Shown: in pieces, positions 11,101-64,000 of the stretch
Numbering within the stretch: the stretch's first letter is position 1
How the letters are laid out: the number at the start of each line of letters is the position of its first letter
Origin: Selaginella tamariscina
Lineage: Eukaryota; Streptophyta; Lycopodiopsida; Selaginellales; Selaginellaceae
DNA length: 64,000 bases
Direction of reading: 5' to 3'
Assembly (NCBI GenBank): GCA_003024785.1
Contig: PUQB01000116.1
Location: forward strand, 326,001 to 390,000
Position numbers and translations under genes: made by a program
Notes under the pieces: model-generated
The model's input: only the letters and a program-made list of their open reading frames with translations
What the model was told of the DNA's origin: nothing
The model's database searches: none

Positions 11101-11583
11101 TGCAATATTATGTTTGTTTTATACACCAATGTATTATACTTTTATTATTTCCAAAATAAATATTTATGGTACATAGGGTTTGAAAAATAAAAAAAGCCTT
11201 TTGCATCTTGCATTGGTATACTCGTAAACACTAATATACTAAATTATATGTATAAAACGGAAATGATGAATCTGTGTATACATGAATGTATGAGAGAATT
11301 ATCAGAATAAAAATGGTAACCACATATGATATTCCTAGAATGATTAAAAATAAATATTTTATGAAGCTTTTTTATACTAAATTTTTTCTCATTAAGTTTT
11401 TTTTCTTTTTAAGGTTTAAAATAAATGCCAATATTACTTTAACAACTGTCATGCATAAATAAATTGCTAATAACCCACATAGCTGTGCCCTAGATAAATA
11501 CACACACAGACATGTGTGTTTAAATGTATCTATATGAGTCCTAGCAACACTTTACACACACAACAAGAGAGTAAACATTGTAA
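8173..11583. other. AT-rich intergenic DNA with a small inverted/direct repeat near 10780-10900
   Basis: No gene is recognised. At 9470-10070 there are several short degenerate direct repeats (TTTAGAATAAATATAATT, AAAATGATAAGTATTT). At about 10770-10900 the motif CACAAAGTGAG occurs twice with a related TCAATTGG(C/G) context, and its complement CACTTTGTG also occurs, suggesting a small decayed MITE. Its ends cannot be fixed. Confidence 0.45.
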
Positions 11584-11610
11584 TGCACGTTGTAACTAAA
11601 GTGGGCATGA
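11584..11610 (+). repeat. Left terminal inverted repeat of the large element
   Basis: This 27-bp end begins TGCACGTTGTAACTAAAGTG. Its reverse complement recurs at 25221-25247 with three mismatches, and a copy with one extra G opens the second element at 61051. Inside it lies a long ATTAATTAATT-rich tract and then palindromic GAATATTC words at about 11751 and 11774, which also occur just inside the right end. Confidence 0.8.
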
Positions 11611-11870
11611 TACGTGAAAATGGGAATATAAAATAAATTACTAATTAATACTTAAGTTTTAATTATTAATTAATCATTTAATTAATATGTAATTAAGCCT
11701 TAAATATTAATTAATTAATTAATTAATCCTTCAATAACCTTACTTAGTAAGGAATATTCCTAAAATATCTTAGAATATTCATATTATTCTAAAAATAGTT
11801 TACAATAATGAAGAAATACTATCAAACATAATTACAAATGAAATCATTTCTTATCAACATGTTAATTTAT

Positions 11871-13058
11871 TTATAAATACTTTCTTCTAACCATACAGAG
11901 AAATCTCCTCATTTTGTCTAAATCATCACTCTCCGGATTAATCAAATCATTTTGGTCAATATCTTGATGTTGTTGCCACCACCTAACACTCTCACGAATG
12001 CAATTGGGAGTTGCCATCCTTGTTAATACATAAGATGTAATAAGACCAGGTCTGCATAAAGGCTCATCTAAAAATGACGTTCCTTAAGAATAATATTATA
12101 AAGCGCCCGGTTGCTATCCTTCATTTTATAAAATTCAAAATCACGAGAAAGAAAAGCTTCAGGAAATGTATGATACGGTGGATACTGCTCACAAAAATTT
12201 TCGAGATTCTTCTTTCTGAGGCACGTATCCAAGTAGTTCACTAGCTCATCCATGATATGTATCAGAATATGGATCGAAAGTGATTGGATGAATACAAGCA
12301 ATGTTTTGGTTGAGCATAGCCTTCTGAGGAGAGTCGTCTACTACTAAGATATGTGCATTCTTCATTATCCTTAAGCGACTGATCTCCCCATGAGTCCCAA
12401 TTATTCTTTCATTCTTGAAGAAGTATGGCTTGCTTTCCTTTCTTATATTGTGAAATTCGAGAGGTTTATAACACATTCGCTGGTCAAAAATCCAATCTTT
12501 ACGAATCACCTCTTCTGCAACACTACAATGTTTCTTAAGCAAATTCAACAGCGGTGTTAAGTTATGAATCTGCATGCATGACCAAATCCCCACAAGCGCA
12601 CCCATCTCCTTAAGCTTTTGAAAGAGACGATCCAACCCTGGACGAAAAATAATATCATATCGAAATTTACCATGACAAGGAATGAAATCTCCTTGTTTGA
12701 TTTCTTTTTTCCTATCCTCGGGCCTTTGTCGATGAAGCAGAACACCATTGACATCCAACAACACAATATGGCCATGAGTAACATGAGATAGCGTTGCCTC
12801 TTGAATACTTTGCAAATCACTTGTTTGCTCCCTTTCACATTTATCCGTTGCCACTATCTCGTTGCCTATCCCTTCATCATTTAATTGTACATCATCCTTA
12901 CAAGATTCAGATATTGCATGCGCTGAAGAAATTGATTTCGGAACTGAAGCCAATAAAAATGATGATGAAAAAACTGAAGTGGCCCCCATGGTAACGATGT
13001 TTTGAGCTGCATTATTATCCATTTCCTGCATGAACTCTGTCATTCTGACATGTGGCAC
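11871..13058 (-). CDS. HAD-superfamily FCP1/SCP-like phosphatase carried by the element
   Basis: The protein starts MPHVRMTEFMQEMDNN and has an N-terminal tail of about 95 residues, then an HAD fold. Motif I is VLLDVNGVLLHR, motif II GIWSC and motif IV ILVVDDSPQKAM. After DPYSDT a frame change near 12255-12262 leads to MDELVNYLDTCLRKKNLENF. A further change near 12072 leads to DEPLCRPGLITSYVL and an end at 11871. The family dephosphorylates proteins such as the RNA polymerase II tail. The acid/base Asp of motif I (DxD) is Asn here, a state also known to me in plant-specific members with an LDLNGLL motif, so catalysis is uncertain. The second copy of the element carries the same gene at 61340-62527. 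The frame breaks differ between copies and look like base-level errors. Confidence 0.75.
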
Positions 13059-13312
13059 AAGAAATTGTCGCCAAACCCCTCTCTTACCTCATGCCAATGC
13101 TGAAAATCCATGTTCTCAATTGTTTCATTACATCTGCAAAATGATAATTAGCTGACCTTAAAATTATCAAGGTATATTATTTACCTTGTTAATGTGTGAC
13201 CCATGTTTGAACTAAAAGCTTCATTAATCCTTGAGAATTTATTTTCTGTACAAATATAAACGAAATATACAAAAATGCCTTATGTTACACTCATTTACAA
13301 CTATTCGTCACT
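13059..13312. other. Spacer between the two left-hand element genes
   Basis: About 250 bp with no gene. It would contain the 3' end of the ParB/methyltransferase-like transcript and the 5' region of the HAD gene. Short extra HAD exons here cannot be excluded. Confidence 0.4.
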
Positions 13313-16300
13313 CTAAGAACTCATTAACAATTCTTCTTCGCTATTACCTTCTGAGTGAGGCGAAGAAGGTCTAAGCCGCTTGTGAGATGGTTCAAGATCT
13401 TCTGTATCTTCTATTGATGTTTCCATGGGTAATGGAGTGTGCAAATGTTCTGTACTCCTCGAGATAACTTCCGGTCTAATATCTGATTGAAGTTCGTCCT
13501 CAGACTCCGACATTGAACCAGATTCGTCTTCAGAGCTATCGCACTTATCTGGAGGGAACTTTCTCAAATACTCCTTTATGGATTCGTTGGGGTAGTCAGT
13601 TGAGAACCTATCTATCCACTTGTTCAGGTCCTCAACCATGGTCTTATCCTTTTCAACGGCAAAACACATGTATCCGAAGGTAACACTCCTTCAAGACGGA
13701 CCCCCTAGTGCAGTAGTCAAAAACCCACGCATCACTGTGAGGACCCCTGATCAAGTTGACGATGCTCCGTGCCGCTTGACTTGTGATGTTTGGATAACGT
13801 ACATTGCCGAATACGTCACTCTCCTATCGGTGTATCGGATGGAGGTTCAGGGCCGTTGGAGTGCAAACAGATGCCTGGCCAGTCATTTGGAAGTTTGAAA
13901 CTGTTTGGCGCATTCCTAACAACCAAGTGAACAACCGAATCAATGCACTTCGGATCAGCATCATTCATATAAAATCCTGTCCAACGATGTTTATTCCTCT
14001 TGGCAAAGGAGAAGGCAAAGGTATCGGTGACATGAGCAAGAATCAAGAAATAAATACCTGAAAACGTAGATATCAGTCAAGAGTGCAAGTATGAATTCAA
14101 TAATAAATACCTTCTTTGTAATACTTGCACGGCTAAGTTTCTCCACCAAATCCTCTAGTGTCCTGTCTGTCAAAGGATTTTTTGACACCCGCCGATCCAT
14201 CACGAACAATTGAAACGGTTTCCTACAAGCAGTGATGGTACCCCATAAAGTCTCCGAATCCAACAACAAACATCTGTAGGGCTTGTCGTGATTCGTAGCA
14301 TCCTCCTTTATAAGGTTCAACTCGGTTCTCCGCTGCTGAAGGACTGCCATAAGAGAAGGCGTCATCGCAATGTTCTCCTTTTTGGCGTTGGCGTGCAATA
14401 GATTCTTGCCCAGATCTTCCGATTGATTCACCCATTCGACAAGCATATCATCATTTGTCACATGCAAATATTTGCTGACCTCTTCGTATGTTGAAGCCGA
14501 AATCCAACCCAGTTTGTGGCAGTGTATTCCCAACCACTCCTTGAAGTGCCTGACCGTCTTCAACTCCATTGCCTTGAGATGAAAAGGAGAGGTGGGCTGC
14601 TTGTTAATCTGTAATTTGCCATCAATCACCAAATCAGCCAAGACTTCCATCTCCTCCATCGTTGTTCCATTTAAAGGCTTCAACCATGTGAGCTTGAAAT
14701 CGTTGTCTACATCCTTTATAGATTGAACAGACTTAGCCTTCGGCGTCTTACTGGGTTTCTTTGCAGACTTCTCTGAGGGCTCCACTTCACTTGTCTGCTT
14801 CTTCTTCAGTGTTCCTTTTGCAAAGGATTCCATAATCCCCAACCATTTCGCAAAGATCCTATCCTCGGGACAAGAAATCAACATCATCAAAAAGGATGTT
14901 TCCTTCCCGCCCACCTGGGCAAAATCAACTGCTACAATTTCTTCAACTCTCTGAGAAAAAAGACAGATTAATATACCGGCGAGATAAATCCCGCCCAAAC
15001 AATTTGCTTACCCGGTAGTCCGCAGATTGTGTATTCCCTGCGGTAGCTCTTTGTGGTCGCTGAAGAGATTCCCACACGGCTCGCGTGTGTTTGAACTTCT
15101 CCCATATTTTGCTGTTGTAGTGGTTGGTGTCTGCAGCGTCCCATTCCGCCGATAACTTATGGTACTGCTCGATTGTGAGATTCGGCTTCGCTAAAAACGC
15201 CGATCTTTTCGTCAGCTTCTCACGGGTATGCTCGGAAAGTTTTGTTGCCATCGTTCCTTTGTTGTGTTCGTCGAGAAGTCGTTGGGCTGCCGTTATTGTG
15301 TGCTGGCCACTAATGATGTAGTACTTAACTGATTTTCTATTCTCCGTCTGAACCTTCCTCATTTGTTCCGGTGTTGTGATCCACACTTTGTCAGCGCCTT
15401 TGTTTCTCTCGTAGTATGCGCACAAAACAGCATTATGTGGAACGGTGTAAGAATTGTCGTCCTTCATCTTCTCCATGAGCTCAGCTACACGTTCCTGATT
15501 GAGTGGCCTGTAATTGAAGTTTGGGTTGACGCTGCAATACTTAACCCTACACTGTAAATCCTATCATCCAACATCATTTCCTTGTGGCTTATTGCAGCAT
15601 GGGACGCCACAGGTGCAGCTGACAAAACGACTAATGATTTTCTTCTACGATCCGAATCAACATGTGTGATCCCCGATTGATGCTGTTCTAATGTTCTCCA
15701 CACTCTTCCAGCTCCCGAAATTTGCTAAGCAAATTGAACGTGATCTGTAAAGAACCTGAGACCAAGCCACCCTCTCAATCTCCTTATGATGTCGCTGTGT
15801 TCTTCTTCAATGTGAAGAGGGACGATTGCTCCACTTGTGGATTTTCTGTATTGTGAAGCAATATCTCCTGAGAATACACCTACTCGATGAGTCTGAAGAT
15901 CTTCGAAGTAGACATCCAGTTGGATCCCCTCCATAGATGGGCTTTCGTTGAGTTGAAGAAGAACTCCAGGTCAACATCATTAGTGAACACGTGAACGTCA
16001 TTATCCACAAGTCGACAAAACCACCCGAAATTAATGTTGTAACTGGCGACCTCTGGATCCGAGAACGTGACATTGGATGGAACAAGGCATATGTGTCGAG
16101 CATCGTTCAATCTGGGTTCACAGCATGCTTTCGGATGCTTGACTAGCACACCCACTTTCCATTGTTTTGCTTGTCCATGCGATGTGACAGAGGTTAGTTT
16201 GACAGCAACCATGGTTGTTCCAATGCGCTTCCCATTTAGTTTGAAATATGGCCAAGTTGATTCCAGAATCCCCCTGCCCATCTCTTCTCCTGCTTCGTCT

Positions 16301-16407
16301 TTAATGTCACCTCAATTCCACATCTGAATACAAAAATGATTAGTTCACATATCCGAGTATAACAGATTTTATTTTAATTCTTACCCAGAATTTGACGACG
16401 ACTCCAT
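13313..16407 (-). CDS. ParB/Srx-like plus DNA-methyltransferase-like fusion protein carried by the element
   Basis: Multi-exon minus-strand gene, start MESSSNSG at 16407. Visible introns are about 16324-16384, 14951-15011 and 14057-14089. Domain order: an unrecognised N-terminal region (16323 to about 15560); a ParB-like domain with NPNFNYRPLNQERVAELMEK (about 15477-15535) and YYIISGQHTITAAQRLL (about 15282-15332); a Lys-rich linker (KKKQTSEVEPSEKSAKKPSK); a region with LFVMDRRVSKN at the position expected for motif IV (normally DPPY); and AWVFDYCTRGS...CVFAVEKD, resembling the S-adenosylmethionine motif I of N6/N4-type DNA methyltransferases. It ends in an acidic Ser-rich tail. ParB-methyltransferase fusions are known in phages. 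The DPPY-like motif appears lost and the ParB GxHR Arg is Thr, so the protein may bind DNA without catalysis. Several one-base frame changes occur; copy 2 (62782-64000) reads correctly across one of them. Confidence 0.65.
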
Positions 16408-16734
16408 ACTAATGACTCGATCTCCTTGTTTAATTAAATCGTCCTTCTGCAAAATAATACACTATGAATACAAATCATATAAAAACGCACACACACTTGT
16501 ATAAACCCGAATATACAAAAATAATACACAGAGAGAAGTAGACGGAATTAACTGTCCAAAGCTCACTTTGTGCTAGTCAAAGAAAGATAACATTTCGTTT
16601 TAGAACCACCACAAATGTGAGCTCTGGACAGTTTTACATAGTTTCCTAGCTTTTACTCGAAATATTATGATAAGATGATAAAAGTAAATAAAATGAGATA
16701 TGCAACTTATATATACTAATACACATATATATTC
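16408..16734. other. Upstream region of the ParB/methyltransferase-like gene
   Basis: A CAG acceptor at 16447 shows that transcription begins further right. The 5' exon and promoter therefore lie in or beyond this stretch, towards palindrome array 1. No further coding exon was recognised. Confidence 0.4.
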
Positions 16735-17640
16735 ACATGGAAGGTGCGGCGGGATTAATCTCGCCACCCCTTCAATGCCTCCTGAAAGAGTGGGCGGGAT
16801 TAATCTCGCCACCTTTCTGGAGGCCTTGAACGGGAGTGCGGAATTAATCTTGCCACCCTTCTCGGTCTCAGAGAGAACTGGGCAGGATTTATTTGGCACA
16901 CCCCTTCAGTGACTCCAGAAAGGAGGCGGGATTAATCTCGCCCACCATGTAAGGGATGGTTAAATGAATTTCCCCACCCTTCCCAGTTCTCTCCATTGGT
17001 ATGTTGTAAACCTTCTACGTCTCAGACAGAAACGTTTGGGATTGGTCCGACTCACCAATGGAGAAAAAAAGGAAGGGTGGCGGGATTCATTCCTCCAACA
17101 GGCATTGAAGGCTCGGCGGGATTAATCCCGCCGCCCAGGGCCTTCACTCGGTCCCTACGCGCGGGATTAATCCCGCCGGACGCCAATTCCCTGCTCGAAT
17201 CGGGCGGATTAATCCCGATTCTGCGCAGGCAGCGGGATTAATGCCGCCGGCCTCATCGGCTAGGCGGCGGATTAATCCCGCTGGACGCCAATGCCTTGCG
17301 CGGAATCGGGCGGGATTAATCCCGCCGCCTAGGCCCAAGTGAAGGCCGGGGCGACGGGATTAATCCCGCCGGACGCCAATGCCCTATGCGGAATCGGCAG
17401 GATTAATCCCGCCGCCTAGGCCCTTCAGGCAAGCCAATGGCGACGGGATAAATCCCGCCCGATTCCGCGCAGGGCATGCGTACGCGGCGGGATTAATCCC
17501 GTCGCCCAGGCCCTTCACTCGGGCCTTAGTCGGCGGGATTAATCCCACCGCCAAGTGGCTAATTATATAGCGGCGGGATTAATCCCGCCGCTACACACGT
17601 CTCACCATATAGTGGCGGGATTAATCCCGTTGCTACACAC
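16735..17640. repeat. Palindrome array 1 (about 19 copies of GGCGGGATTAATCCCGCC)
   Basis: The unit is an 18-bp perfect palindrome. Copies near 16749, 16796, 16838 and 16927 are variants ending in TCTCGCC or TCTTGCC. Those from about 17115 to 17613 are mostly perfect or one base off. In that part centres are about 41-47 bp apart, apart from two closer ones near 17231 and 17263. The sequence between units varies. Both strands read open through the array because the palindrome encodes GLIPP/GINPA-type peptides, but this is not evidence for a protein. The array lies just upstream of the minus-strand ParB/methyltransferase-like gene. Confidence 0.9.
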
Positions 17641-18183
17641 ACACACACATATATATATATGTATATGTGTGTGTAGGAGAGTGCGTGTGTGCCAGAGATA
17701 GTCAAATCAGATAAAATTATACAGATACACACACACACACATATATGTATATGTATATGTATATATGCGTGTGTGTGCGAGAGATAAATAAATAAATAAA
17801 ATTATACAGATACTGGTACACATAATATATGTATGTATACATAGGTATATATATATATATATGTGTGTGTATATGTATATCGTGTGTATGCGTGTGTGAA
17901 ACAAATAAAATCATACAGATAAACAAACACACACACACATATATATATACAGGAGTGTGCGTGTGTGTAGAGATACAATTAACAAATCAATAAAATTATA
18001 CAGATACACACACACACACACATATATATAGATAAATAAATAGAATATATATATATATCTGTGTGTGTGTGTATATGTATATATATATTTGTGTGTGTAT
18101 ATGTATACGAGTGTGCGTGTGTGCGAGAGATAGAGATCTATAGAGAAGAGAGAGAGAGAAGGTGATATATATATATATATACA

Positions 18184-18230
<47 letters not shown>

Positions 18231-18304
18231 GTGTGTGTGTATATATATACAAGTGTGCATGTGTGTGCAAGAGATAGAAATCTATAGAGAAGAGAGAGAG
18301 AGAA

Positions 18305-18384
<80 letters not shown>

Positions 18385-18560
18385 GTGTGTGTGTGTATAT
18401 GTATACGAGTGTGCGTGTGTGTGCGAGAGATAGAGATCTAAATTATATTATTAAGATACACACACATATAAATATATATGTGAATAAAATAAATAAATAA
18501 ACTCAGAGGAGTGTGCGTGTGAGAGAGAGAGAGAGATCTCACCTGTGTGAGAGAGAGAAG
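17641..18560. repeat. Microsatellite block: (TA)n, (TG)n/(CA)n, (GA)n
   Basis: Almost pure simple repeats, including a (TA)n run of about 75 bp at 18306-18382 and another at 18187-18228, interspersed with TGTGTGTG and GAGAGAGA. A GAGATAGA-containing motif and a TATACGAGTGTGCGTG motif recur every 150-200 bp, so this is also a degenerate higher-order tandem repeat. Long TA runs can extrude as cruciforms and are difficult to assemble, so length here is uncertain. Confidence 0.85.
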
Positions 18561-18579
18561 GAGATTTCCACGCCGCCGC

Positions 18580-18735
18580 CACCGCCGCCTTACAAACCCT
18601 AGGAATATACTTAAACCCTAAAAGGAATAGAATATATATTAACCCTAATCGAATATTCCTTTTAAGAATATACTTAAACCCTAAAAAGAATAAACTATAG
18701 ATTCGCCCTAAACGAATATTCTTTCATTATATTAT
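18580..18735. repeat. Duplicated telomere-like (CCCTAAA) segment
   Basis: AATATACTTAAACCCTAAAA occurs twice about 70 bp apart (near 18603 and 18666), each followed by an ACCCTAA or GCCCTAA word and a GAATATTC word. The CCCTAAA words match the plant telomere unit and also the telo-box promoter motif. Confidence 0.6.
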
Positions 18736-18899
18736 CAGCGTGTGCGTGTGCGTGGGTGTATCACATACACCCTAAGAATAAATATCATGCAAGGGTTTAA
18801 CACGTGTGTGTTCATGAGAGTGTTAAAGTTTCACGTGCAGCGATACATATATACACACATAGTATTATACACATAGACATACATACATATTAGTACATA

Positions 18900-19440
18900 T
18901 TAATATTAGAGAGACAGAGTATAGGATCATGTATGGTGTGTATGTATGAGAGAAGAATGACAATACATATTATGGATTATGCATCGTGTGTATGTTTGAG
19001 AGAAGAGAGACAGTACATATTTACATGGATCATGCATGGTGTGTATGTATGAGAGAAGAGTGAGAGTGTTAACAAATTAAATTCATACACATTGGATATA
19101 TTAGTACACACATATACATACACACGTGTATACACACAGACGTACATACATATTACATGTGTAAATTCAATGTAGGGTTTAGGGTTTAGGGTTAGGATGG
19201 ATCATGCATGGTGTTTATGTATGAGAGGAGTGAGTGTTATACAGATATACATTATACATATTACATAATATTGTAACATCAGTACATATTATGGATCATG
19301 CATGGTGTGTATGTATGAGAGAAGAGACATGCTACATATTATGGATCATGATCATGCATGGTGTGTATGTATGAGAGAAGGGATTACGCATGGTGACACT
19401 GTGTATGTATGAGAGAAGAGATAGAGTGTTAACAAATGAA
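18900..19440. repeat. Minisatellite of GGATCATGCATGGTGTGTAT units
   Basis: At least six imperfect copies of a unit containing GGATCATGCATGGTGTGTAT followed by GTATGAGAGAAGAG occur between 18925 and 19420. Spacing is irregular (about 50-130 bp). Embedded at 19174-19194 is a short interstitial telomere run (TTTAGGG repeated about three times). No coding content is seen. Confidence 0.7.
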
Positions 19441-20784
19441 AATCGTACACATTGCATATATTATATTAGTACACATATATACATACACACGTGTATACAC
19501 ACAGACATACATATATATTACATGTGTAAATTCAATGTGTTACATACACACACACTGAGTACATATAGATCATACATGCGTTGAACATGATGTTTTTCAA
19601 TAAAGAAGCAACATATAATTTCTCAAGTTTGGTTTAGGGCAATGTGCATGTGTATGCATATGTGTCTCTGTAAGTGCTTCTAATGCGTGTGCACATGTAT
19701 ATATAAATTTATGATTGTGTTTATATATAATATGTGCAAAACAAACATGGAATAATTAAGAAAATAATATTAATATACACACTATGAACATATTTTAAAT
19801 TATACATAATAATATATGATTTTATCTAATATATAGCCATATATAGTTTAATAATATATATTAATTTAATATTGATAATAAGGTTTAACACATGAATATT
19901 CTTGAAATAATAACAAATTAATTGAGAAAATCCCATTAATATATACAAATGTAGAATAATTACTGAGATAATTAAGAATAAGACTAATTTAATTATGATA
20001 ATCATGTTTAATATTGGAATATTCTTTGAATATTAAGAAAATAACAAAGAATATCCCATTAATAGTAGGAAATGTAAATTAATTACTCGAGTAATTAAGA
20101 AAATAATAATAATAAACAGACTATGAATATATTTTAAATGATACATAATAATATATCAATTTATTTATTGTATTAGTGTATATATATATATATATAATAT
20201 AAACTTACTAATATATACTTGAATATTAAGAATGTAGAATAATTACAAAAATTTCGTAATATTAAACAGCTTGAAGCACTTGAATGACATTAAATGCAAT
20301 TTTAAAACACTCATTGGAATTGGAGAGTATATATGTCAGACTGTCGTTATTTGTTTCAACTCATCTTAAATTTTCTTTTCTGTTATTTCAAAAATTTCGA
20401 ATTTTCTGACATAAGTATTATCAGTCTGACATGTAAATTTAAAAATACATTTAATTTCCCACTTAAATTCAGATCTGGTTCTTTCTCCGGCAAGGGTTTC
20501 TTCATTTTCACTCTTCAGATTTTCTTTTTTCTTCTTAGTGATCAGCTCAGGAGCGACATTAAATTGGGTGCGCTATTGTTTATAGGAAAGCACGGCGCCT
20601 TCAGTGCTGTTTATAAGTAAATATTATAAACAAATTTAGATATATTTATAAAGATTCACTCTCTTACATTCTCTCTTAAATTTTAGAATTTAGGGATTTA
20701 GGAATGCATTAGGATTACAATATATTCTATTAGGGATTTATCCCGTTTAAATATACTTTTAACTTAATATTTTCGGTTAGCCGG
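19441..20784. other. AT-rich spacer inside the large element
   Basis: Mostly AT-rich DNA with GAATATTC words (19898, 20019). A 95-codon open frame at 20333-20620 (MSDCRYLFQLILNFLF) is hydrophobic and matches nothing I know. It could be a 5' exon or leader of the transposase transcript, but support is lacking. Confidence 0.4.
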
Positions 20785-21500
20785 GGGGGCAGGATTAATC
20801 CGGCCATTTTTTCATCTCTTTGAGGAGGTGGCGGGATTAATCCCGCCACCATCTCTTTCATAACTATGGCAGAATTAGTTCGGGCAATGCTTCTCCGCCT
20901 CTTAAAAAGAGCGGCGAGATTAATCCCGCCAATAACTTTCTCAACTGATAATGATTTACTTGAATTTATTAGAAAGAGTTGTCGGCGGGATTAATCTCGC
21001 CAACCATTTTAGGAGGCAGAGAAGGGGTGGCGGGATTAATCTCGTCACTACTTCCCTGTTTTAAATATTTGTGGGCAGAATTCATCCCGAATCTCTTTGA
21101 AATCATAATTTCGGAGAGAGTTGTGGGCGGGATTAATCCCGCTGCTTATTCCCCGTCATCAGAGTTGTGGGAGGGATTAATCCCGCCGCCTATTCCCGTC
21201 GTCAGTGTGTGGGCGGGATTAATCCCGCCCCCTCTTCCTCGTCGGAGGAATTTGCGGCGGGATTAATCCTGCCGCTACTTCCTCGTTGGAGGGAGCCCGC
21301 GGCGGGATTAATCCCGCCGCTACTTCCTCGTCGGGAGCCCGCGGCGGGATTAATCCCGCCGCCTCTCTCCGACGGGGTAGAGTCGGCGGTGGGATTAATC
21401 CCGCCGACTCTCTCCGACGGGGTAGAGTCGGCGGCGGGATTAATCCCGCCGACTCACTCTGAAGGGGTAGAGTTTGCGGTGGGATTAATCCCGCCCATCA
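20785..21500. repeat. Palindrome array 2 (about 16 copies of GGCGGGATTAATCCCGCC)
   Basis: Same 18-bp palindrome as array 1. Left-hand copies (about 20791-21073) are degenerate. From about 21128 to 21479 nine copies lie 40-47 bp apart, most matching perfectly. It ends 140 bp before the first recognised transposase exon, so it occupies the promoter or leader of that gene, mirroring array 1 upstream of the opposite gene. Confidence 0.9.
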
Positions 21501-21640
21501 GTTATATTAATAAGCATGAGATATTATTTTATATATAATTATATATTATTGCACATGCATTATTAAGCAACTGCAGTTATGATTTCTTAAAAAATATTGC
21601 ATAAACAGATATCATAAATAACACAATTATTTATGTGCAG

Positions 21641-24600
21641 GACAATATGTATAATACTGGAGATAAAGTATGTCTTCTTCGGAACAACGAGATAGTTGGC
21701 ACTGGAACTATGGAAGTTCGAGATGATAATGCATCATGTCACAATATTGCCTAAGAATCTTGTGTGTACGTATGAGTGAACACCATTTTCAAGCATGTTG
21801 AGGTTCATGGAATGGAATTTGAGGAGGGTTCTCCTGTATTGTGGAATTTGGATGAAGTCAAGGCTGACACAGAATATACAGAGTCACAAACAAACAGTAG
21901 CACGAGTTTTCCAGATGATGGCTTGCCTACTGTGATGGATGAGGTGATTCTCTTTCTTCATGAGATTGAGGTTGGGAGAGGCATCATCACAGCTATAAAT
22001 CTAATGGAAGCAGTGTCAGAAGAGAAACTAGGGTCTGACTTCGTGGTTAGTTGTGACAGAGGTTTCACCTAATGGCACTTTGCATCTTGGATCCCTCGTG
22101 GGTGGCGAACATCTGAATTAAGACGGCAAGATGGTTCAACATATTCGGGTTGGATTTCAATAATAACAACCTGGAAGAACAACTCATATTTGAAAGAGGT
22201 TCCTTGCATTGGTCCTATTATAAGAAAAAGGCGATTCATGGGTTGCAGATCTTCCCCTACATGTTTCAGCAAGAGGATGAAGATGGATCCTACATCTTTC
22301 GAAAGTGTTACGAGCATTTCCACGATTGACTGCTGCAAGAAGAAGTGTTGTCAGATGGCAGACCGAATGAAATTACCCAATGTAGACATGTCTTTCGTAC
22401 GCTCACCCAAAAGCAAAGGCATGAGTTTGTATATGCTGCACTAACTGGGTGTATTGATGGAATGGCTTTGGACACAGTTATCAGAGTACATCCATGGTAT
22501 TTAATAAGGTGGCCATCTGCTTCAAAGCTTGGTAAGTATATGGGATCCCAAAGACCACGTTCTACCGTCGGAGGGATGAGTGGTTAGATGGAGCGAACCT
22601 CAGTACATGGGAACACTGGCTTGGTCAAAACCCGCTCTCACATTATGGCAGCCATAGAGATACTCAAGGCTTTTGTGGAAGCAAATGCAGACAGGATGCC
22701 TCACAAATGCCGAACCACAAATGCAGGGTTAGGGAAAATCTCAAGGTTTTGCCTTCGATCTACACTCAATTGAAGCTGTGTGAACATGTGAACAAGTGCC
22801 TCAGCTTGATGGGGCTGCAAGCAATCTGCACTGGTACCTTCAACAACATATGGAATACTCATTTTAAGGATGTGGAGATTGCAAAACACTCTAGCTTTTC
22901 CAAGTGTGACACTTGTACATCATTGAAGGCTGCAGAGGCTTGTGCAAAAACCTTGGTGGAGATCACTGCCATTCAAAAGAAGATGGAGGCCCACATGATT
23001 GCGCAACAAACTTGCCGGTCTCAGTACTATGCACACCGCATGCTTTCTGTGTCACACCCATCAGAGTACCTGTGCTTGATCCATGACAAGATGGATCATT
23101 CAAAGACCAGCATTCCAAAGCTCGTTGCAACACCAAAGTGCCTTGGAAATGTCATGAAACTTCCGATTTCATTGACAGGTGTGCTAACACATGGACACGG
23201 TTGTGAATCATATGGACACTTTTCACTTCCACATTGGTCTAGCGACTCCAATTTCACTATTGGGTCGTTGGCCATGTGTTTCAGAAACCTTGAAGCCCAC
23301 TCACAGACAAGTCCTATCGGTGATCTCAAAGTGAAGAAACAACACCTTCAACCTTTACATAATGCTCTCATGAACACGTCTGCACTTGAGGCTACTTGGG
23401 AATATGAGAGGCATTGTCAGCAACCTGCACAAAAAACAGATGGCCTTGTTGAGAGTTCAGGTTCAGTGGAGGGATCTAGCTCAAATAGTGTACATGTGTC
23501 CTCAACATCAAATAAGCTTCCTCGTCATTTGCTTTTACAGATGGATAATTGTGCAGGCGAGAACAAAAATAGGTAAATCATTTTACTTAAGGGTTTCTCA
23601 AGCTCATACTTACTTTTATTTTCTAGATATGTGCTAGCATACTTGTCAATGCTTGTTGCCAAAGGTGTGTTTGAAACAATCACGCTCAGTTTTCTTATGG
23701 TTGGTCACACTCATGAAGATATTGATGCGTTCTTCAGCAAGGTCTCCAACTCTACAAAAAGGACAAGTGCACTTACCTTACCACATATGATGAATCTTTT
23801 TGAAAATTGCATCTCCAAAAAAAGTTGTGCTTTGCTTGTGACTGAGGTGCCAGACTTCAAAAAATTTCTCAAGGAGTATATAAAAGAGGGGAGTGATTCT
23901 TTAGTTGGTCACCTTGTGCCGCTACAATTCTTTTTCTCCATACGAGATGGTATACCTATTATGCAGTACAAGTTACGGCCATCAGAGCAGGAGTGGTTAC
24001 CGAAAGAGGGGTTAATGCTCTTCAAAAGTGGAGAGAATGGAAAGCCAGACCCTATTCCATTGAGTGCCCAACTCAAGGAACAAGAGGTTATTATTGATGG
24101 CATCAAAAAATATGTGGCATGGGTTCAAAAATCGATGCCAAAGAATTCTGATAAGGCAACTGGTTACTCAGAACTATATAAGCATGTGGTTGGACTATTG
24201 GGAGACTGTTGTTCGAGAGTTGGAAGGGCCTACTGTCACAAGTACAGAATTGCAACACCCTTTTTTGGCCTAAAACAAGGTGGCGAGAGGAGATTGAAAT
24301 GACATCACTGAGCACATAGACGACATAGAAGCCAGTAGTGATGTGGAAGTGCAAACCCCACACTTTGTTGGACAAAGGAACCAAAAACCTAAAGCATACT
24401 TTGATTGCTGCCAGGATCTTCAAAAACTAATGATGGTTCTCATTACTCCAGATGCGTCATATAATCAGCCTATTTGGATGGGTCAAATTATCGACACACC
24501 TGAAGTAATCACAAAAAATAGTAATTGTTAAGGTTGCATGGTTCAAACCACAAAAAAGGCGACACGAGAAGGAGAGCGAAAGATATAATGGATGCCTAGA

Positions 24601-24757
24601 GAAAACATGGTCTCCCAATCAAAAAGACCCAGCATGTTTTATAAATGTTAAATCCATTCGATATGGGTGGATGTCAAGAAGCGTTGATAAAGTCACGATT
24701 ACAAAACTGCAAGGGAATGTATGTTTTCTGAAGCTTAAAGCAATTACAAAATTATAA
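21641..24757 (+). CDS. DUF7869-type putative transposase (RNase H-like), frame-broken
   Basis: The first recognised exon follows a TTATGTGCAG acceptor (MYNTGDKVCLLRNNEIVGTG). Next come a short beta-rich region (FKHVEVHGMEFEEGSPVLW), a Cys segment (TIDCCKKKCC, HVFRTLTQKQRHEFVYAALT), a zinc-finger-like FSKCDTCTSLKAAE, and the core. The core shows CLIHDKMDHSKTSIPKL (about 23073), LLLQMDNCAGENKNR (to 23572), a 54-bp GT-AG intron (23573-23626), then YVLAYLSMLV and FLMVGHTHEDIDAFFSKVS (about 23699-23755). DKMD, QMDN and GHTHEDID are the usual acidic blocks of the DUF7869 family, which I take as a DDE/RNase H-type transposase. The C-terminus has a YNQPIWMGQII...VKVAWFKP segment typical of these proteins. 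Frame changes occur near 21752, 22330, 22590-22720, 24290 and 24529. Confidence 0.75.
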
Positions 24758-25220
24758 AATATCATATATTTAATATTCATTATAATTATTATAAACTCTT
24801 TAATAATAGTACCAAATTGTTTTACTTAACTATATAAATTTAAAAAATGATATGGAAGATTGACTATATATAATTATAGGATTATATATATATATTTACT
24901 ACTACAAATTTTTAATTAATAATGCTATATTTAAATATTAATATTTTAATAACAACATCAATATTTATATAATGTACCTCTTATGCTCTTCCTTAATTGT
25001 TATATTAGGCATAATTATTATATAATAATACCTTCTACTTTTATAATGTTATTAATTTTTGTTCAATGAATGCTATAATTTATTAAAGGGTAGAATACAA
25101 AATAGAATATTCTAAAGAATATTCTATTTTCAAACATATATTCTAAAGAATATTCCTTTAATATTAGAAAATACTAATTAAATAGCTAAAATTGCTAATT
25201 ATTAGGAAATGGGACTATAG
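24758..25220. other. Right subterminal region of the large element
   Basis: AT-rich and non-coding. It contains four clustered GAATATTC-type palindromes (AGAATATTCTAAAGAATATTC at 25105-25125, and a related pair at 25140-25152), the same word found inside the left end. Such subterminal motifs are often transposase-binding sites, but that is inference here. Confidence 0.55.
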
Positions 25221-25247
25221 CCATGCCCATTTTAGTTACAACTTGCA
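25221..25247 (-). repeat. Right terminal inverted repeat of the large element
   Basis: Reads CCATGCCCATTTTAGTTACA and ends ACTTGCA. Its reverse complement matches the left end at 11584-11610 at 24 of 27 bases. The right flank continues TTTAGTCTTA and does not obviously duplicate the left flank ACATTGTAA. Confidence 0.8.
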
Positions 25248-26695
25248 TTTAGTCTTATACCACCTGCAACACATGTTCAAAATAGTTAATGAAGAAAAGC
25301 ATATAGCATTGTCGTACATGAATAGAAGTTCCTATATTATAGAAACAATCTTATATAATATGACCACATAACATAAGCATCAAAAGGTGCTTGCATTTAA
25401 TTAAATGCAATATTAAAAATATTAAAAATAAAGAATATATATTAAAAGCAGTATCAAAGCTAATTAGTACATATATTGATTGAAAGAAATATATGTATAA
25501 TTTGCAAAACCTAATTAAAATAACTAGTATATTGGGTGTTGATTCTCAATATCTAAAGAAAATTGTAAATCTCATATAGTTTATAACCATCGATCTTTAC
25601 ATTGACATTTGGATTCTTATATGATTTCCCTACAAAACAAGTAAATGAATGGACTGCCCTTCTTTTTCTCAAAGTCATCTCCTTTGTAAATAGTGTGCAT
25701 GTAGGTTAACCCAACACTACTAAGGAAAAAAGAAAAATGTATCAAAATCAAAGTCATTAGTAAAAAAATTTTAATTGTTCATCTGCACTTAATTATCATA
25801 CAACCCAAAATCAACCTTAGTACTTATTGTGGTATGGTACCCTTAAGATGTACATTCTTGTCTTGTACAAGTATCAAATCCATTATGTTTATCCACTAAA
25901 TATTGTTCTAATTAAAAAACCATCACGATAACTTCTTATGCAACAATTATGACATGGATTTTGAAGACCACCATCAAACAATAGCTTTGAAAGGTAAATA
26001 TTTTATATTTAAATGCAATGATGTGTTAAAACCAGTAGTTGTGGTCATATTTATAAAGAAAATATTTTAATAGTGCTATAATAACTCTTGTAATTAAACC
26101 TCTTGTTAATTCCTCTACCACTTACACACTTCCCAAAATACTTCGGTAAAGGTTTGGAGTCCCTCAATGCTGAGGACATGATGTTTGAAGCCTTTAGCTT
26201 CCCCAAAAGATTGCACTTGATAAAATTACTTCAAAGCATCACTTATGTCAGAGTTTTAACATGAAGGGCTAACATGTGGTAACACGTGGTTACTAAGTGA
26301 CATTAACACATTGTGTGAGCAACGCTAAGTCTTCCAAGGCAACCTCAAAAGTTTGACTTAAATGCACAAGACTTAAAAGTCCTACCTTATTTCCCAAACC
26401 CCAGAGAGTAGCCTTTAGGATCATGCCCTAAGAGACCTAGATAGGCTAATGTTCTAATCTCACCAAAGAAACGTGTTTAACACATATACATGTGACAAAA
26501 CTAAGGCATCGTCACTTCCCCCTTGAAGAATCACCCTCATCTAGAAGTACAACCCCTTTACGGTGACAAAGGGTACCATGACCCACGATTAACCTTGCGG
26601 ATTTGAGTAGCTGAGGCATACCCTAGTCCTAAGGCTAGTACTTAATAAGGACATGAGTGTGCACTGTAGGAAAACACTAGTCTTTATGGATAACC
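25248..26695. other. Intergenic DNA, no recognised gene
   Basis: AT-rich to about 26100. From 26100 to 26690 base composition becomes more balanced and repeat-like (for example GGTAACACGTGGTTACTAAG at 26278), which suggests retroelement debris. No open frame or LTR boundary could be supported. Confidence 0.4.
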
Positions 26696-28105
26696 CTGAG
26701 CATGCAACCATGTGAGTGTCTCACCTGCTTTGGAGATCCTGATAAGTATTGGTTCGCATGCATGAAGTTACGAAAGCTCACTCAAGGATCCCGACCAACT
26801 TCCGTCGATGCATTCGAATTTCAGCAACTTTGCATAAACATTCCATGGGACGAGATTGCATTGATTGAAAACTTCCGTTTTGGGTTGAGGGATGACGTGA
26901 AGGACCTTCTTCTTACGTTATCGGATGCCCAAACATTAATGAAGATCATGCAATAAGCCATTCGCTGCAACAACTGTTTGTTTTGAGCGTTGTTAAGAAA
27001 GATCTCGTTAGCAGTTCCTGCAAACCAATCCTGCAGCTATGGTACATGTTCACCTTCTGGAGTAGTTCCTATGGAGGTTGAGAAATCCAAGCGTGGCCCT
27101 CTTTCCACTACTGAGAAGCAACGTCGCCATAGTGAGAACCTATGCTTGTATTGTGGTGAAATAGGACACAAGGTGGTAAAATGTCCTATTAAAGCCAGGA
27201 AGTTCAAGATGCGTAAAGTCGAAACTGAAGTTCAAGATGCGTGAAGTCGAAGCTGAAGCTCAGTCAGAAAACTTCAATGTTCACTTCGTCTAGGAGCCGC
27301 GAGGACGTAGGTGCAGGCTCTATTGGTGCTACTCATACCATTCCATCACTCAAGTTTCCTGTACACATTTATCTCAATACTCAAGGAGTTATCCCTGTTA
27401 GACACTGGTGCAAATGCATGCTTCATGGATGACACTTTTGCAACTCAACATAGCATTCCGGTGGTGAAGTTGAAGCATGCAGTTCCTATAGAGGTGGCCG
27501 ATGGTTATTTGCTTCTAGTGCAGTTACCCATGCTACCAAACTTCTCTCTTGCAGTCATGGCACATTCAACTGTTCGATTTCCTTCAACTTAATCAAGACT
27601 CAATCGACTCCCATCATTTTGAGCATGCCATGGTTCGTTGTTGCAAATCCGCAAATCGACTAGAGATCTAGGACGCTCATGTTTTCCTCCCTGGCAGCCA
27701 GGATCAATCCTATACCTCCTTGCATGCAGGATACATCCTTAGTATCTGAGGCAGTACAAGCTACAGGATTGACCGTGCCTATTCCTATATCAGTGTTGAT
27801 GACTCCTCAATAGGATTCACCTCATGTCAGTTCCTCAGCACATCCGCAAGCTCTCCCCACTCCCATAAGTTTTCGGATTCCTGTACAGGGTTCTTCCAAT
27901 CCTGTATCAGTGTCGAAGGTTCCTCCTCAACAGGATCCACCTCCTGTTGGTTCGTCAGCACACTCGTAGGCTCTCCTCACTCTTGTGCAACCACGGACTT
28001 CTATACAAGATTCTTCCAATCCCGTACACTCATCAACATCCACATAAGTTTTTCCCAATCCTGCCTCTTTTCGTTACTCTGCTTTTGTTCCACCCCCAAG
28101 ATCCT
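26696..28105 (+). pseudogene. Ty3-type retroelement gag-zinc knuckle-protease, copy 1 (decayed)
   Basis: The piece opens with a gag fragment (FEFQQLCINIPWDEIALIEN) after an internal deletion that joins GCATGCAACCATG to the GGAGATCCTGATAAG part of gag. A CCHC zinc knuckle (CLYCGEIGHKVVKC, about 27147-27190) and a retroviral-type protease with LLDTGANACFMDD (about 27395-27433) follow in other frames, then a Pro/Ser-rich linker. Several stops and frame changes are present. The end of the linker (about 28105) runs directly into gag of copy 2, making a tandem gag-protease arrangement. Confidence 0.8.
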
Positions 28106-59035: not shown

Positions 59036-61050
59036 ATGGACCCCTCAACTTGGTCCCCTTCTACTTCCCTTTATGTGGACCTTATTTATGACAATCTAGA
59101 AGCTACAAAGGTTGTTTTACAGTGTATGCAAAGAAGAATGGCTAAAGACCTCCTAAGGGTGGGGCAATCTATCAATATTCAAAAAGGTGCAGATGCATTG
59201 CATGCAAGAAAGAAACTATCAATTGAATGCTCTATCAATATTGAGGGAAGGAAAAACCAAGAAACTAAGTTATGGTTACGAATTGGAGCTCTGAGAACAT
59301 GGTGGGGTATGGACAATGCACTTAATCATGTGCATGCATGAAGGTGCACCCATGGTGAGATGACAATATGCAACTTACAGCCCTTCTAACAACTCAATGA
59401 GCCTAATGTGGAGAAGATCATTTATATGCACCATGCTAGAGCGTCACCATTGGTTATGCAATAGTCTCTCCCAACAAACGTTCTAGTCATAAAAAATGAC
59501 ATTCACAACGTCGTTCAACAAGACAAGCACATGTGAACTCATGGTTTCATAACAATGGAGGCACTTATGGAGCACCTCAAGCATCAACCGGTGGTGTTAA
59601 CAATCAAGGTTGACAAGAACAATTGTGTGACACATTTTTTCTTATAGTTGAAGGTGTTGAAAAAGTTTACAAGGCAATATTATAGTGGCGAGATCCTTCT
59701 TATCAATTGCACTTATAAGACTAACAAATATGGGATGCAGTGTATGCACATTGTCAATGTTATTGTCACCAATCAAACCTTCTCATCCTCGTTCTTCTTT
59801 CTTGCCAAAGAAGAGACTTTTGTGAGCGATTGTAGAAGTCAATAGAACCCTCCCAAGATCGCTAGAGGTTAGTTATTGTTGACAACAAAAGGGTCTTCAT
59901 TGCCACAATAGAAGAGGTTTGGCCATCAAAGAGGATCATCCTATGTAGGTGGGACATTGAGAAGAATATAGCAACACACTGCAAAAGAACTTCCAGAGGA
60001 GCAGCAATGGCAACAATAATGACAACGGGCCAGTAAATGGTAAAGATAAGTGGGGTGCTTTTATCCAATGGTGGAAGATCGTTGTTGGTGCATCAATGAT
60101 TGAGGAATTCAATGCTCATTGATAGAAGCTCAAGGATGATGCCCTTGCTAACTCAAATAGAGTGGTTTACATCGAAGCCAATAAGCTCTTATTTAAGGCT
60201 TATTTTGTGACCTTCTTTATTGACAAATACATGCATTGCGGGCACATTGTCACCTCCTGCCTAAAAGGAAGTCACTAGAACTTTGTGAAGAGTAGGTTGA
60301 GGGGCGCCAATAGTAATCCCCTTGCCAAATACGACCATCTAGTAGAAGGTACAAATCTACATCATCATGACATCATCCACCACATTGTGAAAGAGAAGAT
60401 TGAAGCGTTGATGCGCCTTCTGACCTTCCTCAATCCTCTACATCATTGCATTTCCTAGTACACATTGCTACTTGTCAAGAAGTAGTATGCTCAAGCAATT
60501 CAAAGTTAAGAAGAAGATCTATCGTGTCATAGTTCTAACTTGGTGGGTTGACCACTTGGGTAAAGATTGTGGGATATGTAGGATATGTGTGAAAAAGACC
60601 CAAGTGGACCTGGATCATCATGACTAGGGTTCTCTCATAATACTAATTGGCCCTTTGCTTAGTTGACTTAAGGGGAGAGGGAAAGGTTTTGACATTTAGT
60701 ATCAGAACTAAACCTCTCGATTACATGTGTACAACCATATGTCTATGAGATCACTTCTAAGCTGGGTGCAAGACATGCATGTGTAACCATCACAATCACA
60801 CCATGACTAGGGGCCCTCTTATAAACACTAATTGGGAAAGGTTGTGACATATTGCCTTGTACCCATCACAACCGCACCATGACTAGGGGATCTCTTATAA
60901 ACACCAATTGGGAAAGGTTATGACTTTGTAGCCATCACAACTGCACCTATACAATATCCATTGCACACACAATGTTTGGCAATGTCTTGATGGGAACAAT
61001 GCTCTTTATTGGACAATTCTATCTGCCAAACATCTTGATAGGAACAATGG
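59036..61050 (+). pseudogene. Very degenerate retroelement-like tract with short tandem repeats
   Basis: Less AT-rich than its flanks. A 101-codon frame at 59036-59341 (MDPSTWSPSTSLYVDLIYDN) is of unknown nature. A broken CCHC-like motif (YMHCGHIVTSCLK, about 60227-60265) suggests a gag remnant. Near 60690, TAGTATCAGAAC resembles the initiator-Met-tRNA primer-binding site (TGGTATCAGAGC) just after a CA, as at an LTR end. Three related units containing ACCATGACTAGGGG and CAATTGGGAAAGGTT occur at about 60615-60925. None of this is strong enough to define an element. Confidence 0.35.
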
Positions 61051-61339
61051 TGCACGTTGGTAACTAAAGTGGGCATGATACGTGAAAATGGGAATATAAA
61101 ATAAATTACTAATTAATACTTAAGTTTTAATTATTAATTAATCATTTAATTAATATGTAATTAAGCCTTAAATATTAATTAATTAATTAATTAATCCTTC
61201 AATAACCTTACTTAGTAAGGAATATTCCTAAAATATCTTAGAATATTCATATTATTCTAAAAATAGTTTACAATAATGAAGAAATACTATCAAACATAAT
61301 TACAAATGAAATCATTTTCTTATCAACATGTTAATTTAT

Positions 61340-62527
61340 TTATAAATACTTTCTTCCTAACCATACAGAGAAATCTCCTCATTTTGTCTAAATCATCACT
61401 CTCCGGATTAATCAAATCATTTTGGTCAATATCTTGATGTTGTTGCCACCACCTAACACTCTCACGAATGCAATTGGGAGTTGCCATCCTTGTTAATACA
61501 TAAGATGTAATAAGACCAGGTCTGCATAAAGGCTCATCTAAAATGACGTTCCTTAAGAATAATATTATAAAGCGCCCGGTTGCTATCCTTCATTTTATAA
61601 AATTCAAAATCACGAGAAAGAAAAGCTTCAGGAAATGTATGATACGGTGGATACTGCTCACAAAAATTTTCGAGATTCTTCTTTCTGAGGCACGTATCCA
61701 AGTAGTTCACTAGCTCATCCATGATATCGTATCAGAATATGGATCGAAAGTGATTGGATGAATACAAGCAATGTTTTGGTTGAGCATAGCCTTCTGAGGA
61801 GAGTCGTCTACTACTAAGATATGTGCATTCTTCATTATCCTTAAGCGACTGATCTCCCCATGAGTCCCAATTATTCTTTCATTCTTGAAGAAGTATGGCT
61901 TGCTTTCCTTTCTTATATTGTGAAATTCGAGAGGTTTATAACACATTCGCTGGTCAAAAATCCAATCTTTACGAATCACCTCTTCTGCAACACTACAATG
62001 TTTCTTAAGCAAATTCAACAGCGGTGTTAAGTTATGAATCTGCATGCATGACCAAATCCCCACAAGCGCACCCATCTCCTTAAGCTTTTGAAAGAGACGA
62101 TCCAACCCTGGACGAAAAATAATATCATATCGAAATTTACCATGACAAGGAATGAAATCTCCTTGTTTGATTTCTTTTTTCCTATCCTCGGGCCTTTGTC
62201 GATGAAGCAGAACACCATTGACATCCAACAACACAATATGGCCATGAGTAACATGGATAGCGTTGCCTCTTGAATACTTTGCAAATCACTTGTTTGCTCC
62301 CTTTCACATTTATCCGTTGCCACTATCTCGTTGCCTATCCCTTCATCATTTAATTGTACATCATCCTTACAAGATTCAGATATTGCATGCGCTGAAGAAA
62401 TTGATTTCGGAACTGAAGCCAATAAAAATGATGATGAAAAAACTGAAGTGGCCCCCATGGTAACGATGTTTTGAGCTGCATTATTATCCATTTCCTGCAT
62501 GAACTCTGTCATTCTGACATGTGGCAC
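61340..62527 (-). CDS. HAD/FCP1-like phosphatase, second element copy
   Basis: Same gene as at 11871-13058: MPHVRMTEFMQEMDNN start, LLDVNGVLLHR motif I, GIWSC, LVVDDSPQKAM and the MDELVNYLDTCLRKKN continuation. In this copy a base is missing just before motif I (near 62254), splitting the N-terminal tail from the domain. The first copy is continuous there, while both are out of phase around 61725-61730. The phosphatase domain itself is unchanged in sequence, including the Asn in place of the second motif I Asp. Confidence 0.7.
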
Positions 62528-62781
62528 AAGAAATTGTCGCCAAACCCCTCTCTTACCTCATGCCAATGCTGAAAATCCATGTTCTCAATTGTTTCATTAC
62601 ATCTGCAAAATGATAATTAGCTGACCTTAAAATTATCAAGGTATATTATTTACCTTGTTAATGTGTGACCCATGTTTGAACTAAAAGCTTCATTAATCCT
62701 TGAGAATTTATTTTCTGTACAAATATAAACGAAATATACAAAAATGCCTTATGTTACACTCATTTACAACTATTCGTCACT

Positions 62782-64000
62782 CTAAGAACTCATTAACAAT
62801 TCTTCTTCGCTATTACCTTCTGAGTGAGGCGAAGAAGGTCTAAGCCGCTTGTGAGATGGTTCAAGATCTTCTGCATCTTCTATTGATGTTTCCATGGGTA
62901 ATGGAGTGTGCGAATGTTCTGTACTCCTCGAGATAACTTCCGGTCTAATATCTGATTGAAGTTCGTCCTCAGACTCCGACATTGAACCAGATTCGTCTTC
63001 AGAGCTATCGCACTTATCGGAGGGAACTTTCTCAAATACTCCTTTATGGATTCGTTGGGGTAGTCAGTTGAGAACCTATCTATCCACTTGTTCAGGTCCT
63101 CAACCATGGTCTTATCCTTTTCAACGGCAAATACACATGTATGCCGAAGGTAACACTCCTTCAAGACGGACCCCCTAGTGCAGTAGTCAAAAACCCACGC
63201 ATCACTGTGAGGACCCCTGATCAAGTTGACGATGCTCCGTGCCGCTTGACTTGTGATGTTTGGATAACGTACATTGCCGAATACGTCACTCTCACCTATC
63301 GGTGTATCGGATGGAGGTTCAGGGCCGTTGGAGTGCAAACAGATGCCTGGCCAGTCATTTGGAAGTTTGAAATGTTTGGCGCATTCCTAACAACCAAGTG
63401 AACAACCGAATCAATGCACTTCGGATCAGCATCATTCATATAAAATCCTGTCCAACGATGTTTATTCCTCTTGGCAAAGGAGAAGGCAAAGGTATCGGTG
63501 ACATGAGCAAGAATCAAGAAATAAATACCTGAAAACGTAGATATCAGTCAAGAGTGCAAGTATGAATTCAATAATAAATACCTTCTTTGTACATGCTTGC
63601 ACGGCTAAGTTTCTCCACCAAATCCTCTAGTGTCCTGTCTGTCGAAGGATTTTTTGACACCCGCCGATCCATCACGAACAATTGAAACGGTTTCCTACAA
63701 GCAGTGATGGTACCCCATAAAGTCTCCGAATCCAACAACAAACATCTGTAGGGCTTGTCGTGATTCGTAGCATCCTCCTTTATAAGGTTCAACTCGGTTC
63801 TCCGCTGCTGAAGGACTGCCATAAGAGAAGGCGTCATCGCAATGTTCTCCTTTTTGGCGTTGGCGTGCAATAGATTCTTGCCCAGATCTTCCGATTGATT
63901 CACCCATTCGACAAGCATATCATCATTTGTCACATGCAAATATTTGCTGACCTCTTCGTATGTTGAAGCCGAAATCCAACCCAGTTTGTGGCAGTGTATT
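62782..64000 (-). CDS. ParB/methyltransferase-like protein, second element copy (3' part only)
   Basis: Covers the methyltransferase-like half of the gene; the ParB-like half lies beyond the window. It reads QLFVMDRRVSKNPSTDRTLE, and at the intron (about 63526-63580) the phase is correct here: RASMYKEG joins IYFLILAHVTDTFAFSF, whereas the first copy has a small change (near 14130) that breaks it. AWVFDYCTRGSVLKECYLRH and CVFAVEKD (motif I-like) are also continuous here. It ends with the same acidic tail, with a base lost near 63019. The DRRV triplet change at the expected DPPY position is present in both copies. Confidence 0.65.

Follow-up and report, generated by a model that had tools for sequence, protein, structure and literature searches.

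Described transposons with accessory genes

A ParB-methyltransferase accessory gene is reported from the brown alga Ectocarpus, where Sola1-1_Ec32 is a 21.5-kb DNA transposon whose accessory gene, described as ParB-like plus N4C/N6A DNA methyltransferase, runs on the opposite strand to the transposase (PMC12477816). The element presented here is one copy, named B, of a high-copy DNA transposon and lies at positions 11583-25248 of a 64-kb stretch of the Selaginella tamariscina genome (the window, C180:326001-390000, from an assembly of 300.7 Mb in 1391 contigs). Both are large DNA transposons, and in both an accessory gene lies opposite the transposase; they differ in that the Selaginella element has a land-plant host, an extra NIF-like HAD gene, palindrome arrays and what looks like a loss of methyltransferase motif IV. 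A duplication of 4 bp is made by Sola elements and by the Selaginella element alike, so that the likeness to Sola1 lies in this duplication length and in the described accessory gene.

The Kyakuja-Dileera-Zisupton (KDZ) giant transposons also carry accessory genes (as cited in PMC12477816). The Selaginella element is similar to them in its large size and in its accessory genes. The KDZ transposase is PF18758, and the Selaginella element differs in having a transposase of another family and contains no KDZ match. In phages, fusions of ParB folds to methyltransferases are found (PMC12704722). The prokaryotic ParB/parS system of P1 is comparable in that a ParB-like motif stands beside clustered palindromic sites, and is unlike the present case in that no statistical homology was found, no ParA was seen and the Selaginella element is nuclear and eukaryotic.

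The transposase itself has homologues among DUF7869 (PF25273) proteins of a liverwort, a moss and a sea cucumber, for which we know of no element structure or cargo, and the word DUF7869 was not found in the literature searched. This transposase family, so far a mere domain of unknown function, now gains ends, a target-duplication length and a cargo. The original prediction called the element previously unfamiliar. No description of it was found in the literature searched, which included PMC12477816, PMC12704722, PMC4455052, PMC9033089 and PMC10045372, most subscription journals being outside this scope. The claim holds only in part, since DUF7869 is widespread and a ParB-methyltransferase accessory gene is known from the Ectocarpus Sola1 element. 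The Selaginella gene would extend this algal idea to a land plant.

Ends, target sites and copies of the element

The element belongs to a high-copy, recently amplified family of cut-and-paste DNA transposons with terminal inverted repeats, ~13.5-15 kb in size. In copy B the 27-bp inverted ends named in the original prediction, TGCACGTTGTAACTAAAGTGGGCATGA at 11584 and the reverse complement of 25221-25247 (TGCAAGTTGTAACTAAAATGGGCATGG), are indeed identical at 24 of 27 positions. The outermost bases are 11583 A and 25248 T, each one base beyond the ends named earlier; the boundaries were shifted outward because the 4-bp target duplications of other copies directly flank ATGCA...TGCAT. The ends of the family read ATGCA(C/A)GTTGTAACTAAA(G/A)TGGGCATG and are common to dispersed copies whose flanks differ. 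Between them the genes are divergently ordered as had been claimed, with the HAD gene and a large cargo gene on the minus strand, the transposase gene on the plus strand and a repeat-rich centre in between.

A 268-kb stretch of the 554-kb contig C180, to which this count applies, contains four copies (A, B, C and D). Copies A, B and C and two further full elements on other contigs, C627 (~14.9 kb, chosen for its long open frame, with a 478-residue open frame over cargo exon 2) and C2 (chosen for its variant end and containing a run of N), are whole or nearly whole, and all five have the identical three genes in identical order; the reading of the gene triplet is limited to these five. A search of the 300.7 Mb with a 26-bp end pattern, allowing at most 2 mismatches, returned 2097 + 2000 = 4097 places, against 0 + 0 for the reversed control pattern; this total is taken over full elements, truncated copies and miniature inverted-repeat transposable elements (MITEs) alike. 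The 117-bp left end gave no match in a DNA search of a kind that skips common words; the pattern search succeeded. Among the first 100 end places, 38 neighbouring ends lie less than 25 kb apart, 20 of these face inward and 16 of the 20 form a left-right pair; 12 of the 16 pairs are 13.8-15.0 kb long, within a full range of 10.2-22.2 kb. End windows placed by distance contained the end in 6/9 cases on the left and 10/12 on the right. Among the matches listed, 25 HAD-cargo and 17 HAD-transposase pairs are in the expected arrangement and none is wrong, and cargo-transposase pairs are as expected in nine cases and otherwise in two.

A perfect 4-bp target duplication is present in 10 of the 19 copies for which both flanks were read. 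Joint comparison of the flanks of 18 copies gave ten with identical 4 bp, one (C1) that would match as well if its last T is absent, and seven unmatched, copy B included; the nineteenth, C285, was read separately and is also unmatched (AAGT, CTTT). Given the base composition, the chance of a 4-bp match at any one site is p ~0.005, which makes p ~1e-19 for 10 of 17. One copy, C269, is inserted into another copy's cargo gene with ATGG on both sides, and the uninterrupted site AAGACC-ATGG-TTGAGG is found in 5 of the 6 scanned copies (copy D is without the exact string) and constitutes an empty site for C269. The same copy led us to reject a TGCA duplication with TGCA-specific insertion, as ATGG is duplicated outside ATGCA...TGCAT. 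The original prediction that the whole moves as a unit, a large cargo transposon, is supported by the co-occurrence of the ends, the target duplications, the empty site and the gene triplet in the five whole or nearly whole copies; the findings that would have counted against it, ends that never occur together or left genes always apart from the transposase, were not encountered.

Copy B itself lacks a matching 4-bp duplication, with TGTA to its left and TTAG to its right, its genes contain several frame breaks, and ~1.5 kb of its right flank is common to copy A (6 mismatches, 43 gap positions) while the left flanks are different. This common flank may reflect duplication, aberrant transposition or misassembly. 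On the 268 kb of C180 no additional right end was found by which a macrotransposition could account for copy B. Copies A and B differ by ~1-1.5% mismatches and long blocks differ from D by ~3-4%, with the repeat centre more diverged; between B and C mismatches amount to 0.3% in the left 5.8 kb and 3.5% in the right 3.9 kb. This uneven divergence along the copies indicates that they are mosaics. In the self-comparison of the window, copy C is 99.4% identical to copy B over 2954 bp, the differences being chiefly single-base gaps (13 gaps, 4 mismatches), and the sequences beyond the end are unlike. The gaps, the mosaic of B and C and the flanks of B would all fit an assembly artefact in part, with near-identical 14-kb copies misjoined and some, B included, being chimeras. 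We regard this as possible, if on the unlikely side, and it is compatible with the explanation preferred for the family: true recombination would yield mosaics too, and the perfect duplications and the perfect empty site of the nested copy establish that the family is real whatever befell copy B.

Smaller and rearranged relatives were also seen. At L064:6490-6735, at the edge of a truncated element, lies a 246-bp MITE that has the ends of the element and is flanked on either side by ATAT. An end pair 6.7 kb apart (C84) was considered as a new family and rejected, being a truncated element with a nested 246-bp MITE. Two left ends ~275 bp apart occur at C1:2394829/2395079 and C80:563732/563981, in one case facing outward and in the other in tandem, and are possibly nested or rearranged copies. 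A degraded sequence related to the left-end region lies at C180:493464-493566 (86.5% over 104 bp).

The transposase and the two cargo genes

The plus-strand open reading frames (ORFs) match PF25273 DUF7869 with E-values of 9.1e-13 and 4e-27, above the Pfam gathering score, in agreement with the DUF7869-type transposase of the original prediction. We found 95 DUF7869 homologues, aligning over up to 86% of the query with a best identity of 48-50%, and the main ORF has at least 117 genome matches at 88-100% identity. The protein has a long N-terminal part without strong Pfam match, invariant aspartates and a VGHTH-D-D block. In the homologue P0001 an RNase-H-like core is predicted by modelling; the list of structural matches also includes Argonaute-type chains, and for this reason an RNase-H fold is favoured over any single transposase family. 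From the aspartates, the block and the modelled core we infer that the DUF7869 protein is a DDE-type transposase. Values of the ratio of nonsynonymous to synonymous differences (pN/pS) are 0.10 and 0.16 between copies B and D and 0.41 and 0.04 between B and C627. CACTA/EnSpm elements have CACTA termini and a 3-bp duplication, and membership in this group was rejected because the ends are ATGCA..., the duplication is 4 bp and DUF7869 takes the place of TNP2 PF02992; PF03017 TNP1/EN/SPM scored under the cut-off in the element (E 0.07).

The HAD ORF matches PF03031 NIF with an E-value of 1.3e-10, or 1.2e-12 in a longer reading, and has at least 138 genome matches at 97-100% identity. The protein is clearly assigned by its sequence to the NIF family, in keeping with the HAD/FCP1-like label given earlier. 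The HAD catalytic motif is DxDx(T/V), in which the second aspartate is catalytic; motif I reads DVNGV in copies A, B, C and C2, and the second aspartate is therefore absent. Copies of this gene are too little diverged for a judgement by pN/pS.

The large cargo gene had been named a ParB/DNA-methyltransferase-like fusion. A G-x-H-R-type box followed by beta-alpha order is characteristic of the ParB N-terminal domain, and DPPY and FxGxG are motifs of beta-class N4C/N6A DNA methyltransferases. The protein contains a ParB-like stretch, NPNFNYRPLNQERVAELMEKM ... KYYIISGQHTITAAQRLL, and a stretch like motif I of the amino-methyltransferase type, VFDYCTRGSVLKECYLRHTCVFAVEKDK, with DSET at the place where DPPY is expected. 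Neither name found backing in profile, protein or structure searches. No profile match to a ParB N-terminal domain (PF02195 or equivalent) was obtained in Pfam, NCBIfam or PHROGs, and the methyltransferase-like part had no Pfam match and no convincing PDB match. Searches of 5.8 billion proteins, the PDB, phages, plasmids and viral contigs gave no convincing homology to either (one plasmid match, E 8). Matches in the PDB to two designed dTor proteins (E 1.2e-5 and 0.02) were set aside as chance, no matched stretch passing alone. In hhalign, with YbdM aligned to up to 47 relatives as the counterpart, the motif came to lie opposite YEIVDGFHR with a probability of 0.26%, within the range of 20 shuffles, and a single-sequence model of the ParB-like ORF, with a predicted local distance difference test score (pLDDT) of 43, has no evidential value. 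We use the two names for motifs only.

The ORF at 14943-15560 (205 residues) has at least 150 genome matches at 95-100% identity, with frames up to 651 residues, and among the matches listed those to the large cargo and HAD genes mostly have open frames. In comparisons between subfamilies, purifying selection is seen in the large cargo gene, with pN/pS of 0.15 (B-C627, 177 codons) and 0.20 (273 codons) in the two main exons and 0.35-0.42 in the N-terminal part, which has no domain assignment, all pN/pS values being lowered by the dropping of codons in poorly aligned windows. Within the subfamily (B-A) there are few changes and values run from 0 to 1.10.

Palindrome arrays and the possible role of the cargo

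The central palindrome GGCGGGATTAATCCCGCC is arranged in two arrays with a spacing of ~44 bp. The original description of two arrays was confirmed: allowing at most 5 mismatches, 34 sites fall within the copy B element and none elsewhere in the window, compared with a mean of 0.13 in 30 shuffles of the element. Copies A, C, D and C627 contain 45, 26, 49 and 44 such sites, respectively, C2 has 16 around its masked centre and C84 also has 16. In the three copies scored (B, D and C627) core columns contain 1.2-2.0 bits and no spacer column exceeds 0.6, so that cores are conserved and spacers are not, the pattern expected of protein-binding sites. The spaced dyads look like sites of a dimeric protein and are candidate binding sites. 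A different palindrome, GAATATTC, occurs close to each end of A, B and C, close to the right end of D (the left end is missing) and to the left end of C627 (the right end is outside the scan) and also in the centre, and its subterminal occurrences are candidate transposase-binding sites.

On balance we favour a cut-and-paste DDE transposon with cargo proteins that would act on its behalf by way of the palindrome arrays; support is good for the transposition part, and the cargo part is one that we infer. The DUF7869 transposase would bind the ends, perhaps together with the subterminal GAATATTC palindromes, and would excise and insert the element. The cargo proteins may, with less assurance, assist the element: either the large ParB-like/methyltransferase-like protein or the transposase would bind the GGCGGGATTAATCCCGCC arrays upstream of both divergent genes and act as a self-recognition and regulatory factor (as repressor, as copy-number sensor or as chromatin mark), in partnership with the NIF-like protein. 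Set against the catalytic motifs, both cargo "enzymes" appear to lack a key residue (DVN for DxD, DSET for DPPY), and a role in binding or as a scaffold is therefore more likely than catalysis. If an element-encoded protein recognises the arrays, a eukaryotic transposon would possess a self-addressing system whose natural targets exist in very many copies within a single genome.

The arrays might instead be the transposase's own sites, displaced to the centre as in the repeated motifs of plant CACTA elements, with the other two genes as captured passengers. The position of array 2 directly upstream of the transposase gene and the long N-terminal part of the transposase would suit this, and plant transposons often bind repeated motifs; we nevertheless hold it to be doubtful, as the arrays are central, ~4-10 kb from the ends, whereas a different palindrome is subterminal, array 1 goes with the cargo gene, as does the intron site, and the cargo gene is under purifying selection.

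A bolder reading, offered tentatively and in our estimate rather improbable, would have a catalytically dead ParB-like/methyltransferase-like protein bind the 26-49 palindromes per copy and bridge or mark all copies in the nucleus as a eukaryotic analogue of parS clustering, while a dead partner resembling a C-terminal-domain (CTD) phosphatase influences transcription or silencing, the element thus controlling its own copies. The chromatin or segregation role put forward in the original prediction was not borne out: its labels are motif-based, and the expected DPPY and second HAD aspartate are absent.

Ordinary passenger capture, with a host-like phosphatase and a further gene hitch-hiking and the arrays as functionless unstable repeats, is quite unlikely: plant transposons often capture genes and the number of array units does vary between copies, but both cargo genes are present in 5/5 near-whole copies, at high copy and, among the matches listed, with mostly open frames, the two main cargo exons are constrained, and the palindrome cores are conserved where the spacers are not.

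Table 1. Coordinates of the element, its parts and its neighbouring copies (window positions unless C180 is given)
Feature	Position	Strand	Remark
Left terminal inverted repeat ATGCACGTTGTAACTAAAGTGGGCATGA	11583..11610	+	same end in copies A, C, C2 and 6/9 left-end windows
Two subterminal GAATATTC palindromes	11752..11780 (11752, 11773)		
HAD/NIF (FCP1-like) phosphatase-family gene	11890..13140	-	ORF 12246-13088, with frame breaks extends to ~11890
Large cargo gene	13313..16407	-	~4 exons by eye: 16407-16385, 16323-15012, 14950-14111, 14057-13313; several frame breaks in copy B
Methyltransferase-like motif I region	near 13650-13760	-	motif only
ParB-like motif SGQHTITAAQ	within ORF 14943-15560	-	motif only
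Single palindrome-like site	14978..14995		cargo gene intron; present in A, B, C, D and C627 (all 5 scanned)
Palindrome array 1, GGCGGGATTAATCCCGCC	16748..17634		just upstream of cargo gene
AT-rich microsatellite and repeat centre	17635..20787		between both palindrome arrays
Palindrome array 2	20788..21498		just upstream of transposase gene
DUF7869 transposase gene	21647..24750	+	exon 1 ~21647-23572, exon 2 ~23627-24750, by eye; frame breaks in copy B
Three subterminal GAATATTC palindromes	25105..25155 (25105, 25117, 25148)		
Right terminal inverted repeat	25221..25248	-	same end in copies A, C, D and 10/12 right-end windows
Right flank common to A and B	C180:305158-306657 and 351248-352724 (window 25248-26724)		
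Copy A	C180:291129-305157		
Copy C	61050..64000, C180:387051-400581	+	complete copy, duplication AATG
Copy D			reverse orientation, cut by contig end

Elsewhere in the window there are ORFs of the PF02458 transferase family and of F-box and SET type, in keeping with a plant genome, the SET-domain ORFs lying at 1056-1673 (+) and 43203-43988 (-) with E ~4e-10. A PF02992 (CACTA tnp2) transposase fragment is located outside the element at 34041-34520 (-; E 8e-7). Gypsy-type retrotransposon pieces at 26726-29615 and 37601-38953 are mutually 81.5-85.5% identical and are accompanied by a reverse transcriptase ORF among the ORFs at 29686-32068; the right flank common to copies A and B stops at ~26725, where these pieces begin.
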